Shown piece after piece: positions 3,298-9,852 of a stretch of DNA of 29,929 nt. How positions within the stretch are numbered: the first letter of the stretch is position 1; every line of letters starts with the position of its first letter. The stretch is from a virus, in IMG/VR virus record IMGVR_UViG_3300021962_000447, positions 1 through 29,929 of that record; one strand, written 5' to 3'. The notes below the pieces were generated by a model, which did not search any database, had not been told where the DNA came from, and saw only the letters and a list, made by a program, of their open reading frames with translations. The translations under genes and the position numbers were made by a program.

Positions 3298-4620
3298 TTA
3301 TGCTTCTTTATTGTTTGGAGTATACAGTCCTATTGTATCACGGACTAATGTCAAATAGGTAAACGATTGCTGGCCTTGGAAATAATGACACAAATCCTTA
3401 ATCATATATAGTCCACTTTGAACAGGGTCATGTTCATTCTGTTTTTGTTCTTGAGTTACTACAGAAGGGAACATGCATTTTATAACTTGTCCTGCTTCCA
3501 AATCTGTATTACATGGAACAGCCATTTTCACTTGCTGAGTGAACAATGAGTTGTATCGCATCAAAGATTGCGAATGATATTTTCCAGGATCAGCATTAGC
3601 ACTCTTATCTTTATTATCACCTAAAGTTCCAATGTCTTGAACACCAGTGATAATTCTGGATGGAATTTCTCCAAGACTTATCTTTTGACCATATGCGTTT
3701 TCTACTTCTGGTAAAACAAATTGTTGTCCAAGATTTCTAACACCCTGAAGATAATCTTCTCTAGTAAATAATCCGATGTCAGGACTAGTGAATTGGAATG
3801 TCAATGGGTTCCAATATATTCTATAAGATGCAAACTGTCCCGTTCTCAGCTTTGCAATCAAATTAGTATTAGTAGAAGTTTTATACTTCAAAATTGCATT
3901 ACTCGTATCCTTATTAATATTACTCTCATTAACATCGGAGTAAGTATAAGTCGCTACTGGATCTTGAGAAATGAGTCCATCAATTGATTTAAACTTAAAT
4001 CCACTCTTTGTTTGATAAAACAGGAATCCAGCCGATGCATCTTTCTCAGTCTTTCCAGACACTGACTTCGCTGCAAGCATCTGTAAAACCGTAAATGGTT
4101 TTCTAGTGTTACCTAGAAATGCATACTTGTTTTGTGTATCATCAACGTCAAAAGGAAGGTTCGTTTGTATAACCTCAGACATAATTTTTTTAACGTTTTC
4201 TGAGATTCTGGCTGATCCCTCATATTTTTTATATACCCTACTTGTCTCGTTTTTGATTGCTTCTTTGGAAACTAGATGTAATGTAAATCTTTCTTTCTGA
4301 TTGGTTGCAATTACATCACTAACTTTTCCAACGTGAAGATACTCCGTGGTATCATCCCATCTTAATCCAGATCCTTTTCTAGTGTCAATAGAAAGTTGCA
4401 CTCTCTCACCACCTCTAACAGGCAATCCATTATATAATCCAGTCCCATTCACGACACCACCAGACGTTGTAATAATCAATTTTGCAGTCACTGTAGGTGA
4501 AAAAATATCCTCATAGTAAGTCACGGCAACAACACCATTGCGAATGTCAATGACATTTTGCTTGTCGTTAGACTCAATATTCAATACCTTATAGGTTGCT
4601 GACTGTTGAGCTGCCGTCAT
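3298..4620 (-). CDS. gp27: Baseplate hub subunit gp27-like
   Basis: This 440-aa protein is assigned to the T4 gp27 role (the trimeric hub ring that holds the gp5 spike) mainly from position, length (T4 gp27 is about 390 aa) and general character. It has beta-rich segments near the start (NGVVAVTYYEDIFSPTVTAK), a hub-like KERFTLHLVSKEAIKNE stretch near residue 110, and a C-terminal region (TDLEAGQVIKCMFPS ... SGLYMIKDLCHYF) like the Tal/gp27 fold, in which barrel domains end in LYMIK-type strands. It overlaps the upstream 594-aa gene by 4 bp and is followed directly by cp12. Residue-level homology to T4 gp27 was not verified. Confidence 0.7.
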   Translation of the reverse strand: MTAAQQSATYKVLNIESNDKQNVIDIRNGVVAVTYYEDIFSPTVTAKLIITTSGGVVNGTGLYNGLPVRGGERVQLSIDTRKGSGLRWDDTTEYLHVGKVSDVIATNQKERFTLHLVSKEAIKNETSRVYKKYEGSARISENVKKIMSEVIQTNLPFDVDDTQNKYAFLGNTRKPFTVLQMLAAKSVSGKTEKDASAGFLFYQTKSGFKFKSIDGLISQDPVATYTYSDVNESNINKDTSNAILKYKTSTNTNLIAKLRTGQFASYRIYWNPLTFQFTSPDIGLFTREDYLQGVRNLGQQFVLPEVENAYGQKISLGEIPSRIITGVQDIGTLGDNKDKSANADPGKYHSQSLMRYNSLFTQQVKMAVPCNTDLEAGQVIKCMFPSVVTQEQKQNEHDPVQSGLYMIKDLCHYFQGQQSFTYLTLVRDTIGLYTPNNKEA

Positions 4621-6401
4621 TGGAATGCAAGTGAAGTGAATAACATACTATTTAAGTTACTAAGCGATGACACTGGAACATCTGTTGATGGAACATTATC
4701 GGCATTATATTTTGGAGGTGCGGTAGCTGCACGTTTTTCCATTGCCATCTTGATTAAGCGGTCAAGTTTTTCCATATCGAGAGGAGGTTCTCCACCACTA
4801 TCTAGAGGAGCAAGAGATCCTTGAGAGGGGTCCAACCCAGTATCCATTAATGGTCCACCTCTAGATCCTCCCTTAAAAGATACATGCAGGTGATCGTAGT
4901 GATTTGCAGTTTGCCAAAGAACTTCAGCAACTCCTAAAGATGATCGATTGTCTCTAAAATATTTTGCCAGAGAGTCTAACTGTGCTTTAGTGTTGTGTGA
5001 TAATGGATAATCTAATGCTTCACCATAATTATGGTAGGAGTTATAACTCCTCCTCATCACACGTTCTCTACCGGAACCAGTATAACCACTAAACAAATTA
5101 AAGTCTGGATGTTGCCAGGGTGTATATCCTTTTGTAAGTAAAGAACGACCAACTTTTACCGCTTGCCCATATGCTGAAGATGGGTTAGCAGGCCTGCGAA
5201 CAGATCCATCACCAGCTCCAGGAGTTCCTCTTTTTGCTCTTGCCCTATCTAATGCTGCCTCAACAGTTTCTGGAGAAATAGATGCTCTATTTCCTGCGCT
5301 ACCGGCATATCTTGATTGCCCTCTTTTCTTTCCAGCTTCTGCATAAGATAATCCAACAGATGCAAACTCTCTAGCAAGTTCTTGTGCTGCTTCTGCTCTA
5401 TTATTAGATTCTCCACGAATATATCTACCAACCTCAGGTCTTTTAAACCTCACCACATAATCAGTAAACTTTTCCTGAGTTGCAGCATCAAATTTATCAG
5501 ATCCCTTTATCCCCATGTTCCTGACAAAACCTACCATGGTGTCAGGAATTATCTGATACTTTCCAACAGCAAACACTTGTCCAGCTGACTGAAGTCTCAT
5601 AACTTCAGCAACTGTCATTTCCTGTAGATTTCTACCAAAATATCTTCTAGCTCCACCAGGACTATCGCCTGCATTTCCCCTGTTTATTGACTCGTATCCA
5701 CCTTCTCCACCAGCAATTATCTCGAATAAATCTCCAGATTGAACCTTTCCTCCAGGTCCAGGTTCACCACCATCTTCAACAGGAAATGATCCAAGAGGAG
5801 CAGTCAATATTCTTTCGCCATCTTTAAAGTCTTTTTCCAAAGATGCAATAGCATTATCAAGTTTTTTTTGCGCTTTCTTTACATCACCACTTCTATCTTT
5901 AAAATCAAGGGTTAGAATTTGCTTTGTCTTTGCAGCAATGAGTTCAGTTGTTGAAGTCATAATCTGCAAATTCTTTTGAACCATGCTTCTAAAGATTTCT
6001 CCCATCCTTCTGATTCTTTGGTTCAAATCTTTGATTGCATTAATGATTTTTGGTAATTTATCAGTAATCCATCCAATCAGATATATTCCCAAGAAGTTCA
6101 TGATTCTTGCGAATGCATCTACCGCAAAATTAGGAACCTTCTTTACCAAATTCAAATTAAATTTAGATCCCTGTTTTTCTAAAGCATTTTCTTTTGCCGT
6201 TCTAGTTTTTGCTTCCCCAAGTAAATAAACGCTTCGTTCTTCTTTTTGATTTAATTTCTTAGTTGTTTTAATTTTCTTTTGAAGTACTTTCCCAATATTG
6301 ATTACAGTCTTTTTCACCATGCCAGCATTATTCTGCTGCTTGGTTAAAGCACCACCTGCGGCAGTCTTAGTTATAGCACGGTATTGTACAATAGCTGCCA
6401 T
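4617..6401 (-). CDS. Tail/hub protein with lysozyme-like and M15-peptidase-like domains
   Basis: This 594-aa protein has three parts. Residues 1-200 are basic and helical, with a hydrophobic motif FLGIYLIGWITDKL (103-116) shared with the neighbouring 579-aa protein. Residues about 222-350 look like a lysozyme or transglycosylase domain: a candidate catalytic Glu in GGEGGYES (E233) and AVGKYQIIPDT (278-288), the typical glycan-cleft pattern. Residues about 410-512 look like a zinc D,D-peptidase of the M15 type: SYHNYGEALD (H457, D464) and HYDHLHVSF (501-509, H506 as third ligand). A proline- and serine-rich tail follows. It probably digests glycan and peptide bonds of peptidoglycan during infection. 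It overlaps both neighbours by 1-4 bp within the hub operon, so it is likely a virion protein rather than a lysis endolysin. Confidence 0.7.
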   Translation of the reverse strand: MAAIVQYRAITKTAAGGALTKQQNNAGMVKKTVINIGKVLQKKIKTTKKLNQKEERSVYLLGEAKTRTAKENALEKQGSKFNLNLVKKVPNFAVDAFARIMNFLGIYLIGWITDKLPKIINAIKDLNQRIRRMGEIFRSMVQKNLQIMTSTTELIAAKTKQILTLDFKDRSGDVKKAQKKLDNAIASLEKDFKDGERILTAPLGSFPVEDGGEPGPGGKVQSGDLFEIIAGGEGGYESINRGNAGDSPGGARRYFGRNLQEMTVAEVMRLQSAGQVFAVGKYQIIPDTMVGFVRNMGIKGSDKFDAATQEKFTDYVVRFKRPEVGRYIRGESNNRAEAAQELAREFASVGLSYAEAGKKRGQSRYAGSAGNRASISPETVEAALDRARAKRGTPGAGDGSVRRPANPSSAYGQAVKVGRSLLTKGYTPWQHPDFNLFSGYTGSGRERVMRRSYNSYHNYGEALDYPLSHNTKAQLDSLAKYFRDNRSSLGVAEVLWQTANHYDHLHVSFKGGSRGGPLMDTGLDPSQGSLAPLDSGGEPPLDMEKLDRLIKMAMEKRAATAPPKYNADNVPSTDVPVSSLSNLNSMLFTSLAFQ

Positions 6402-8140
6402 TAGACTAATACATTATAGATGGAATAAGAAAAAACTAAGTATGGATTATCATAATTAGTTGATTCGATGGAGGGAAGATCAGTCACCAATTGTTTATTT
6501 GGTACTTGTTGTGGTGGCCTGGGAGATCCCATTGGGATTGGAATAACAACAGGAGAAGTTCTTCCTCCACCGTTTCTTATTGGTGTAAGTACAGAATTAT
6601 TATTTACTGCACCTCCAGGAGAAACTCTCGTAACCTTACCTGTTCCTGCACCGTCATTTTGAGCTTCTGGAGATTTTATATTTGTTGCTGGGCCAGACTG
6701 AGGAGTTCTTGCATCCCAAGATGCCAATGCTTTAACAGTGCTTGACTGTTTGTCCATCCATGCAGAGAACCATTTATCAAATTCATTCTCTGGTTGTTTT
6801 TTAGAGTTAAACCAATCATCAAACGGTTTTACAACCGCTTTACCAACCATAGGACCAAGAAATCCACTAGCTGCTAGTCCTATCCAAAATCCAGCACCGG
6901 GAATGAGTGCCGATAAAGCAGCCGTTAAAGATCCAGAAAAGACACCCTCACCAAGACCCTCAAGTAAACCACCAAGAATAGCCTGAGTTGGAGATTGCCC
7001 AGACCCAAATCTATTTCTAACAGTAAAAAATGATGCTAAAACAGTTCCGAGTAAACTTTCACCAATAATATTTTTAAGTAATTTTCCTATAGAATTAGAA
7101 CCTTTTTTAAGCAACTTGTCGCTGACAAATCCAGTCAATTTGCTAATTAAACCTTTCTTACCTCCTTTCTTAGCCGATTCTTTAACTGCGATGTCATAAT
7201 ATCCTTTAGGACCAGATGGTCCAAAATCAGTTTGTATCGGTTTTGGTGGTTTTTTTCCCTTCGGAAGCAGTCCTCTTACGGCTTGTGCTAATGGTTTTAC
7301 AGTTTTTTCTGCAATTGGTTTTACAACACTTTCAGTTAATTGTTGTATAGGTTTTTGAACAATTCCTTTGAATTTATTCAGCATTCCAATGGCAAGATCT
7401 CTTATTTTTTTAAAAAATGGAGTAAAAATTTTCCTTCCAATTCTTAAAGAAAATCTAGTGATCGTCTTGATTGCATTTGCTACCCAAAAAGCAAATCCAT
7501 TTGCAATATTAGCAACTGGTGCAAAAAATCTACCAAGAGAATTAATAAGTGTGTCTCTATACTTAGTAAATTCTTCAACATTCCCCGCTGCTTGAGCAGA
7601 GAACATATTGATGAGTTTATCGCTGGTCCAACCAGCCAAATAAATCATCAAGAATTTAGCAAGTCTTTCTAAGAAAGGAATTTGCACTTGCATTCCTTTC
7701 TTAGCTTTTTCTACTTTTTGTGCCTTTGGTTTGTCTGCTCCTTCTAACTTTTGCTCCGCAGATCCTCTGACTAGTTTTTCTCTTACCCTTCTTTGTTTCT
7801 CAAATTGTTCTTCTCTATACTTAGTTTCAGTCTCAGCATCAGTTTTTAATAGTGTTAGAATGTCACCCAACTTTTGATTAACATCATTCGTAGCGATTGC
7901 ACCAGGATCTCTAACTACTAGAGCTCCGCCTGCAAGTCCACCAGAGCGGCCTCCTCCTCCGCCTCCGCCACCTCTAAAACTTCCACCTCCGCCACTTCCT
8001 CCGAATACTTTAGATCCAGAGACTTTAGCCTTTTTGAACAGTTCCTTTCTTTGCTTCGCAGTAAGATATTCTCCTGTTACAGGATCTTTACCGTGTGCCA
8101 GAATGGCAGTCATTAAATTGTCAGTCTTACCTGATGCCAT
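6401..8140 (-). CDS. Tape-measure-like tail protein
   Basis: This 579-aa protein has a glycine-rich linker near residues 45-72, a charged coiled-coil-like stretch (about 100-150), a hydrophobic motif FLMIYLAGWTSDKL shared with the downstream 594-aa protein, several amphipathic helices, and a long hydrophobic stretch near residues 370-445 (LLGTVLASFF ... ALIPGAGFWIGLAASGFLG). Helical proteins with membrane-inserting segments, encoded just after the tail assembly chaperones, are usually tape measures. The length is close to that of T4 gp29 (590 aa). No sequence match to gp29 is evident to me, so this rests on gene order and composition. Its ATG lies inside the end of the gene-51-like frame (stop 8129-8127). 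A non-enzymatic hub protein is the alternative. Confidence 0.5.
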   Translation of the reverse strand: MASGKTDNLMTAILAHGKDPVTGEYLTAKQRKELFKKAKVSGSKVFGGSGGGGSFRGGGGGGGGRSGGLAGGALVVRDPGAIATNDVNQKLGDILTLLKTDAETETKYREEQFEKQRRVREKLVRGSAEQKLEGADKPKAQKVEKAKKGMQVQIPFLERLAKFLMIYLAGWTSDKLINMFSAQAAGNVEEFTKYRDTLINSLGRFFAPVANIANGFAFWVANAIKTITRFSLRIGRKIFTPFFKKIRDLAIGMLNKFKGIVQKPIQQLTESVVKPIAEKTVKPLAQAVRGLLPKGKKPPKPIQTDFGPSGPKGYYDIAVKESAKKGGKKGLISKLTGFVSDKLLKKGSNSIGKLLKNIIGESLLGTVLASFFTVRNRFGSGQSPTQAILGGLLEGLGEGVFSGSLTAALSALIPGAGFWIGLAASGFLGPMVGKAVVKPFDDWFNSKKQPENEFDKWFSAWMDKQSSTVKALASWDARTPQSGPATNIKSPEAQNDGAGTGKVTRVSPGGAVNNNSVLTPIRNGGGRTSPVVIPIPMGSPRPPQQVPNKQLVTDLPSIESTNYDNPYLVFSYSIYNVLV

Positions 8141-8318
8141 TCTGTTGTTGATCCTTTAGTCTCTCTTCTTCCAGATATTGTGACAGGAGAGTAACGTATA
8201 TTTCACGTTCCCAAGGGATCATGTTTTCCAACTCTGTCAGGCTATATTTATGGTGCTGAACTAGGGCAAAATTTGTCTTATAGTAACTCTCAACATTTTC
8301 ATGAGAGAGTGCTAGCTG
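8127..8318 (-). CDS. gp51: gene-51-like tail/hub assembly extension, read by -1 frameshift from gene 26
   Basis: This open frame lies between gene 26 and the tape-measure-like gene and encodes 63 residues, including HHKYSLTELENMIPWEREIY and VTLLSQYLEEERLK. That pattern is typical of the C-terminal part of tail assembly chaperones (gene-51-like in cyanomyoviruses). The frame is open only back to a TAA at 8351-8349, and no ATG, GTG or TTG lies before the conserved part; the first ATG (at ENM) would discard over half of it. It is exactly in the -1 frame of gene 26 at a T TTT TTC heptamer, so it is probably made as a gene 26-51 fusion of 297 residues. Its stop overlaps the start of the next gene by 14 bp. 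Confidence 0.75.
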   Translation of the reverse strand, partial: QLALSHENVESYYKTNFALVQHHKYSLTELENMIPWEREIYVTLLSQYLEEERLKDQQQNGIR

Positions 8319-8324
8319 AAAAAA
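8286..8324 (-). promoter_or_regulatory. Programmed -1 ribosomal frameshift site: slippery heptamer plus hairpin
   Basis: On the minus strand the gene 26 codons are GCA AGT TTT TTC AGC TAG. The heptamer T_TTT_TTC (8324-8318) fits X_XXY_YYZ in the correct phase. After a 7-nt spacer there is a hairpin (8310-8286): stem ACTCTC / GAGAGT, a small internal loop, a CAT / ATG inner stem and a GAAA tetraloop. The gene 26 stop lies in the spacer. Slippage by -1 puts ribosomes into the gene-51-like frame. All parts are seen directly; function is inferred from known -1 frameshift signals. Confidence 0.75.
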
Positions 8325-9019
8325 CTTGCCAGTCCCTCCAGAACAACTTTATTTTTCTTTTTAGTTTTTGGATTAGTTACCGTAATCTCATGGGAGAGTT
8401 TAGGCATAGTCTCGAAGAATTGTTCAATCTTCTTAAAGTTAGAAGTTGGAAACTGTTCGAGAAACTCGATCATTTCTTTCTCAGTAAAATCAGCAGAATC
8501 CCAAGACTCTTCATCATTGTAAATTGCATCAACACATCTTGCAATCAGTTTAAAAGATTCATCTCCACCACCAACAAAGTTATTCTCGATAAACTCATCA
8601 AACTTTGGATACTTCATTTTAATCATGTATCCACCACCAATATCAATAGTGTTTACATGATCTTTATCATTAATAACTTTAATATCATCTACATCAACTT
8701 CAACTTCAACTTCCGTTTCTCCATCGTCTTCACAAGTTACAACAATGGGAATCTTTTCTCCAACGGATTTTCCACGAATGTTGAGAAATAATAACTCAAT
8801 ATCAAATGTGGCAAGTTGAGAGACATCAATACCTTTAGTAACGATGCAATTTGTTAAAACTTGTTTTACAGCTCTAGCAATTTGCTTGCTGTCTTCACTC
8901 TCCATGGCGAGGAGTAAGATCTTTTCTTCCTTAACTAGAAAAGGTCTAAACTCTATGGTCTTTTTAATAGAAGGAATAGTGAGTTCGTAAGTGGGAGTCG
9001 AAATTACTGGTAATGGCAT
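8312..9019 (-). CDS. gp26: Baseplate hub / tail assembly protein gp26
   Basis: This 235-aa acidic protein resembles the T4 gp26 family (T4 baseplate protein family). It starts MPLPVISTPTYELTIPS, then FRPFLVKEEKILLLAMES, then a helical part, an acidic repeat EVEVEVDVDD and YMIKMKYPKFDEFIENN. T4 gp26 (208 aa) takes part in hub assembly. Here it lies between gene 54 and a tape-measure-like gene and ends in LEGLASFFS, where the FF codons form a slippery site. A two-product arrangement (short gp26 and a longer 26-51 fusion) would match the G / GT tail chaperones of lambda-like phages. A late promoter motif lies 26 nt upstream. Confidence 0.8.
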   Translation of the reverse strand: MPLPVISTPTYELTIPSIKKTIEFRPFLVKEEKILLLAMESEDSKQIARAVKQVLTNCIVTKGIDVSQLATFDIELLFLNIRGKSVGEKIPIVVTCEDDGETEVEVEVDVDDIKVINDKDHVNTIDIGGGYMIKMKYPKFDEFIENNFVGGGDESFKLIARCVDAIYNDEESWDSADFTEKEMIEFLEQFPTSNFKKIEQFFETMPKLSHEITVTNPKTKKKNKVVLEGLASFFS

Positions 9020-9045: not shown

Positions 9046-9053
9046 TATTTATT
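9046..9053 (-). promoter_or_regulatory. T4-type late promoter (AATAAATA) for gene 26
   Basis: The minus strand reads AATAAATA, matching the NATAAATA late consensus recognised by the gp55-type sigma factor. It lies 26 nt before the gene 26 ATG and overlaps the stop codon of gene 54. Transcription from here could cover the chaperone, tape-measure-like, hub and spike genes. Confidence 0.6.
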
Positions 9054-9852
9054 ACCCAATATCGGGTGGAGCAAATCCCTCAAATCCAGCTCCAGCAAAT
9101 CCACTAATGTTTCCTTTAATTGGAGAAAGTCCAGCTCCAGAAAGAGGTGCTGCTAAAGTAGGTGTGCCAGGAGGATTTAAAGGTGGTACTTGTTGTTCTG
9201 TGTTAGTGTTTATTGGAGACTTATTGGCATCTTCTCCTCTGGCAATAGCAATACTCGATGCTTTACCACACTGATAGGTATCGTAATCAAAAGTGACGTT
9301 AACTCTGAGGATTTGAGATCCATCATAAGAAACAGGAGTCGAACTCAAAGATACTGGAAAGATGTTAAAGAAGTTGTATTCAAGTGGTTTAATTCTCTTA
9401 TCTTTTTCGAATTTTGTGATGGAAAATCCAGACTTAGATTTATAAGTATCAGGATATCTCATCCTAACAAAATAACCAGGGTTTGACTTTTGTTGTCCAG
9501 AACCAGATGCAATGTATTCAATCCAGTGTTCAAATAATTTTAACATATTATAGTTTAGATCACAATAGAAACCAAGAGTAAGTTGGTCATACATTCTACT
9601 GTGAGCGTACTTTTGAGTAACTCCCATAAAATCCCCATACACATCAACTGTGGCCAAGGATGATCCAGGAAGAGTTGCCTCATAACATAATAGTCCAGCA
9701 TCATTACTAATAAAAGCTGGAGATACGCCTCTAGATGATAAAAATGAACTTAAAGGACCAGGAAGACCACTCATTCTCACAAAGTAGTGAGAACTGAGAG
9801 CAAGTCTCGTTAGGAGTGGTGCTACTTCTGTAATTTTTGAGGCTATCGACAT
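9052..9852 (-). CDS. gp54: Baseplate tail-tube initiator gp54-like
   Basis: This 266-aa protein has the tail-tube-type fold pattern. It opens with HYFVRMSGLPGPLSSFLSS, then CYEATLPGSSLATVDVYGDF and QKYAHSRMYDQLTLGFYCD. Later come FFNIFPVSLSS and LRVNVTFDYDTYQ. These blocks match the gp19/gp54 tube family, whose members stack on the hub to start tube polymerisation. T4 gp54 is 320 aa; this one is shorter and ends in a proline- and glycine-rich tail. Gene 48 (tube cap) is nearby on the other strand, so 54 is the better assignment than tube protein 19. It is divergent from gene 4, with a 29-bp gap. Confidence 0.7.
   Translation of the reverse strand: MSIASKITEVAPLLTRLALSSHYFVRMSGLPGPLSSFLSSRGVSPAFISNDAGLLCYEATLPGSSLATVDVYGDFMGVTQKYAHSRMYDQLTLGFYCDLNYNMLKLFEHWIEYIASGSGQQKSNPGYFVRMRYPDTYKSKSGFSITKFEKDKRIKPLEYNFFNIFPVSLSSTPVSYDGSQILRVNVTFDYDTYQCGKASSIAIARGEDANKSPINTNTEQQVPPLNPPGTPTLAAPLSGAGLSPIKGNISGFAGAGFEGFAPPDIG

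Follow-up and report, generated by a model that had tools for sequence, protein, structure and literature searches.

The 3' end of gene 26 in the marine, cyanophage-like virus record IMGVR_UViG_3300021962_000447, whose 29,929 bases constitute the window analysed here, raises the question of how a reading frame resembling part of T4 gp51, and lying in the −1 frame relative to gene 26, comes to be translated. The initial annotation had proposed a programmed −1 frameshift yielding gp26 together with an extended gp26. Comparative evidence strongly supports that proposal, and it is very probable that the locus encodes a two-form tail assembly chaperone (TAC) by means of programmed −1 ribosomal frameshifting.

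Organisation of the gene 26 locus

The genes concerned lie on the minus strand in the order tail-tube-like gene, gene 26, −1 frame extension and a gene in the tape measure position. The tail-tube-like gene (9052..9852, 266 amino acids) matched PF23849 (Phage_TTP_2, E = 1.7e-19) and the tail tube family phrog_45 (E = 3.6e-39). Gene 26 (8312..9019, 235 amino acids), the putative short tail assembly chaperone or TAC-N, matched PF12322 (T4_baseplate, the gp26/gp51 family) with an E-value of 1.3e-74 and a score of 251 bits against a cut-off of 24.5, as well as phrog_150, 'baseplate hub' (E = 2.6e-79). The extension (8127..8318, 63 residues and a stop), the putative TAC-C domain, matched phrog_634, 'baseplate hub assembly catalyst' (E = 1.9e-30). 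It overlaps by 14 nt the next open reading frame (6401..8140, start at 8140, 579 amino acids), which gave weak matches to tape measure PHROGs, the best at E = 0.0039. Gene 26 is placed between a tail-tube-like gene and a tape-measure-like gene, the latter weak by profile; in phiM12 the annotation of a similarly placed gene notes a similarity to tape measure proteins. Adjoining the tape-measure-like gene on the same strand is a gene of 594 amino acids (4617..6401), a stretch of which matches phrog_37890 and which has weak endolysin and spike matches; it possibly encodes a tail-associated cell-wall-degrading protein.

Gene 26 ends in gca AGT TTT TTC AGC TAG, and the initial annotation was correct to the base both in this reading and in the phased T_TTT_TTC found within it (8318..8324). 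This is the sole X_XXY_YYZ heptamer in the zero frame of the gene, and the TAG stop (8312..8314) follows 3 nt past it. From 8348 the −1 frame runs without interruption to a stop at 8129..8127, and a slip after TTC would give a product of 234 + 63 = 297 amino acids. The earliest ATG, GTG or TTG of that frame past the heptamer is a TTG within the conserved TELENM block, and the extension in the window therefore has no usable start. The 63 additional residues, the 297-residue product and the missing start had all been described beforehand and are borne out by the window, as are the 7-nt spacer (8311..8317), 6-bp stem, inner CAT/ATG pairing and GAAA tetraloop downstream of the heptamer. When the codons of gene 26 are drawn at random, an X_XXY_YYZ heptamer is expected within the last six in approximately 3% of draws; this expectation is secondary, conservation being the real test.

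Conservation of the slippery site and its flanking signals

The junction was compared among 250 related loci from IMG/VR and INPHARED, with 118 representatives less than 85% identical to one another. Alignment of the junction among relatives had been put forward as a check of the frameshift, and in 247 of the 250 loci T_TTT_TTC or T_TTT_TTT was found in phase close to the end of gene 26, with the −1 frame open beyond it; in 218 of these the stop lies at the same 3-nt distance as in the window. Among the representatives the heptamer was TTTTTTC in 111 and TTTTTTT in seven. The codon preceding it ended in T in every representative (118/118), though it encodes Ser, Asn, Asp, Ala, Gly, His or Thr; given the residue and codon use, log10 P is approximately −27 with representatives treated as independent. 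The first Phe codon was likewise TTT in 118 of 118, while elsewhere TTC accounts for 31% of Phe codons, and of 119 Phe-Phe pairs at other positions in these genes just 3 used the heptamer. This pattern of codon use points to selection acting on the nucleotides and not on the protein.

The three exceptions among the 250 loci are a 236-kb IMG/VR contig (L066), IME-SM1 and Vibrio phage D532. In L066 (2001-2888) gene 26 and the extension are fused in one frame through a 2-nt difference, with TCTTTTTGG where others have TCTTTTTTCGG, and this fusion is either natural or an assembly error. IME-SM1 has one T fewer in the run than the near-identical BUCT608; its shorter run was attributed to a sequencing difference.

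T_TTT_TTN was found at the same place in phages of a variety of hosts, including the Vibrio phages KVP40 and D481, AsFcp_2 (Aeromonas), Ci1 (Citrobacter), BUCT608 (Stenotrophomonas), ACP17 (Acidovorax), phiM12 (Sinorhizobium), RHph_I46 and P10VF (Rhizobium), ORM_20 (Ochrobactrum), XG4 (Pseudoalteromonas) and Melnitz-3 (Methylophilales). The gp51 domain also follows T_TTT_TTC in the −1 frame of a 233,234-base contig that is probably Aeh1 (L249:2265-2444). In S-SSM4 and ACG-2014e (L267 and L268) the extension is intact in the −1 frame and unannotated in both records. Scans of viral contigs for distant relatives yielded none to a few.

Upstream of the heptamer, a Shine-Dalgarno (SD)-like motif (GGAG, GAGG and similar) was present at a distance of approximately 9-10 nt in 108 of the 118 representatives, compared with 6% of phase-matched control sites. 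In the window the putative stimulator is GGAGGG (8334..8339), 9 nt before the heptamer and conserved in position. A Leu-Glu-Gly-Leu peptide contributes to the motif; Glu codons at the site are GAG in 77 of 96 cases against a background of 32% in the rest of the gene.

The hairpin downstream of the heptamer in the window (8286..8310) pairs ACUCUC (8310..8305) with GAGAGU (8291..8286), with an inner CAU/AUG pairing and a GAAA loop. Within a slightly larger fold it has a free energy of −9.6 kcal/mol and a z-score of −1.37, which is weak and not significant alone. Folding of the 45 nt past the heptamer gave a mean z of −2.2 among 107 relatives, with values near 0 at most other offsets. RNAalifold found no consensus structure for all 107 sequences together because the stem register differs between clades, and the main clade (48 representatives), whose register differs from that of the window, was analysed separately for covariation in the stem. 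There an 11-bp stem was 92% paired, compared with 24-47% when slid by 1-3 nt. Permuting the partners among sequences left 87% paired, and none of 2,000 permutations reached the observed 92%. A silent Ala wobble base covaries with the middle position of a codon further downstream, as GCU with GAG (Glu), GCG with GCG (Ala) and GCA with GUG (Val), giving standard pairs in 44 of the 48. Conservation of the hairpin, for which the initial annotation had proposed to look, is supported by the folding peak and the covariation of the main clade; it does not extend to a shared register. A second, weaker folding signal (mean z −0.94, n = 107) lies approximately 97-142 nt past the heptamer, within the extension and upstream of the next gene.

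Independent initiation and other explanations

Most database annotations imply a small gene 51 for the extension, separate from gene 26, with its own start and translated by coupling to the gene 26 stop, and S-PM2, KVP40, phiM12 and others are annotated in this way. Some −1 frame ATG does occur within approximately 48 nt in 78 of the 118 representatives, in 69 of them at +15, that is, 15 nt after the start of the heptamer. An SD-like motif serving the +15 ATG was found in none of the 69, compared with 46% of gene 26 starts, whereas 108 of the 118 slippery sites have such a motif placed to stimulate slippage. Furthermore, the extension lacks any ATG, GTG or TTG in 22 of the 118 representatives, one of which is the window, and these retain both the heptamer and the domain. 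As a general mechanism, independent initiation can therefore be dismissed, and for the window the missing start nearly excludes it; a separate gene would also leave the conservation of the heptamer at nucleotide level unexplained. The lack of a start, expected by the initial annotation throughout the relatives, thus holds for these 22 and is not universal, and none of the 69 ATGs at +15 has the ribosome-binding site that it had named as part of the contrary evidence. A separate gene with its own start is accordingly a very unlikely account of the extension, although independent initiation may add to frameshifting in some phages.

In favour of such a start are also the Vibrio phages D532 (L087) and K476 (L279), in which the heptamer is absent and the extension starts at an ATG overlapping the stop (TAATG). 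Stop-start coupling has apparently taken the place of frameshifting in these two phages. The gene annotated downstream there is that of a tail lysozyme and not of a tape measure protein. A broader scenario may be drawn from these variants, in which relatives with the +15 ATG might make TAC-N, the extended TAC-NC and a free C-terminal domain, heptamer-less TAATG Vibrio phages such as D532 would represent a lineage in transition from the frameshift to split genes, and the phage of the window would be the pure-frameshift form; it is speculative and, on balance, unlikely.

Slippage of RNA polymerase on the T run could likewise join the frames through a mixed pool of mRNA, and a run of at least six T is present in nearly all cases, with seven or eight in a few relatives. 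The window has just six, however, and most relatives have six followed by C, a run of six being short for transcriptional slippage. The exact codon phase, the upstream SD-like motif and the covarying hairpin at a spacing compatible with the ribosome fit translation instead, which renders polymerase slippage extremely improbable. The frame break might also be put down to sequencing error or gene decay, for which the in-frame L066 with its 2-nt difference and the single T separating IME-SM1 from a near-identical genome might be cited. This is no more credible: the break recurs at one and the same codon in almost all of the 250 loci and in the named isolates, with both domains conserved, and the comparative data refute it.

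Programmed −1 frameshifting is by far the best explanation of the comparative data. Most ribosomes would stop at the TAG and release the short form of 235 amino acids, TAC-N. A fraction would pause on T_TTT_TTC, aided by the upstream GGAGGG and the downstream hairpin; the two Phe-tRNAs would slip back by one base, and the slipped ribosome would continue in the −1 frame to produce TAC-NC, a protein of 297 amino acids with an extra C-terminal domain. The occurrence of slippage, its rate and the function of the products as chaperones are what we infer from these signals and comparisons.

Relationship to T4 genes 26 and 51 and to tail assembly chaperones

T4 gp26 (208 amino acids) corresponds to the short domain and T4 gp51 (249 amino acids) to the same domain plus the extension domain, and both match PF12322. 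A hidden Markov model built from −1 frame extensions only matched the C-terminus of seven of seven T4-type gp51 proteins and none of seven gp26 proteins. The extension, initially termed gene-51-like, is therefore homologous to T4 gp51 and yet covers just its C-terminal quarter. As T4 gp51 consists of a full-length gp26 paralogue and the same C-terminal domain, the counterpart of the long form is gp51 in its entirety, and that of the short form is gp26. The 'gp26-51 fusion' of the initial annotation is strongly supported by comparison as a C-terminally extended gp26; it does not represent two T4 genes joined together.

In T4, genes 26 and 51 are two genes in opposite orientation with no frameshift, while in RB43 they are in tandem. 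Vladimirov, Gautam and Davidson reportedly describe frameshifting as conserved across several groups of T4-like phages, with T4 using genes 26 and 51. Phylogenetic analysis placed frameshift genes, T4-type gp51 and T4-type gp26 in separate groups, the exception being RB43 gp26 on a long branch. This topology fits a single switch between the frameshift and the two-gene arrangement; the tree is unrooted and the direction of the switch cannot be read from it. T4 gp26 and gp51 are paralogues, encoded by separate genes, and stand for the short and the long form.

An AlphaFold model with a pLDDT of 88.8 was obtained from L066, in which both domains lie in one frame and which served as a modelling template only. 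Confidence was low at approximately residues 242-258, in the C-terminal part, because MAFFT had aligned the short peptides of the −1 frame to a part of the fused protein to which they do not belong. A Foldseek search of the model against the PDB gave no significant match, with TACs on top after re-alignment. The best three structural alignments were modest, with HK97 gp13 (Z = 8.0), RBSTP2171 (Z = 7.8) and YqbN (Z = 7.3), the next being at 4.9 and 4.0. These matches span residues 1-96 of the model, approximately the first 90 residues, at 6-12% sequence identity. RBSTP2171 and YqbN are taken here to be TAC-like proteins; HK97 gp13 and Bacillus YqbN (2ob9, 3klu) are solved TAC-N structures, compared with which gp26 has approximately 140 further residues, partly Zn-finger-like in T4, outside the match. 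The model thus argues with moderate strength for a TAC-N fold in the N-terminal part of the gene 26 product. No PDB chain resembling T4 gp51 or the gene 26 family by sequence was found, which is consistent with the absence of these proteins from solved baseplates.

The same succession of tail tube, chaperone and tape measure genes is seen in lambda V-G/GT-H, where, as here, short and −1 frameshift-extended chaperone forms are encoded directly upstream of the tape measure gene. The slippery site of lambda G/GT, G_GGA_AAG, is different, and no recognisable sequence similarity to gene 26 is claimed. It is from the TAC-like fold and this gene order that gene 26 is read as the maker of TAC-N and TAC-NC, short and C-terminally extended forms being seen as a genetic arrangement. 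If the proteins act as lambda G/GT do, they would bind both tape measure and tail tube: each of the two forms would coat the tape measure protein, with tail tube subunits brought in by the C-terminal domain. The link from gp26 and gp51 to general tail assembly chaperones, as drawn in the initial annotation, is strongly supported by the comparative evidence.

The idea of frameshifting in these genes is right but has already been published in kind. In the passage of PRFect (PMC10885494) that cites Vladimirov, Gautam & Davidson (Virology 2022, 566:9-15), some T4-like phages are described as carrying a short and a separate long (fusion) TAC gene instead of frameshifting, and the same work is cited in PMC12846349 for poly-T −1 frameshift signals in T4-like TAC-N genes. 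As represented in these citations, the gene family and the TAC-N/TAC-NC proposal are the same as here. As far as the searchable literature shows, the internal SD-like motif, the covarying hairpin, the start codon statistics and the taxonomic breadth are additions.

A comparison of cyanophages from 2010 (PMC3037559) reported a cyanophage gp51 of approximately 20% of the length of T4 gp51, without its first approximately 200 residues, and gp51 as missing in Aeh1; frameshifting was not mentioned. The truncated gp51 would be explained by gene 26 supplying the remainder of the protein, joined by frameshifting, and the probable Aeh1 contig has the same frameshift site. In many database records the domain either appears as a hub assembly catalyst of its own or, as with S-SSM4 and ACG-2014e, is missed. 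A two-form tail assembly chaperone is a device common to many tailed phages and has been reported in outline for T4-like phages. The present reading would place the poorly understood T4 hub assembly genes 26 and 51 within the tail assembly chaperone framework, with a defined RNA signal, and that frameshift signal occurs in some of the most abundant phages of the ocean.
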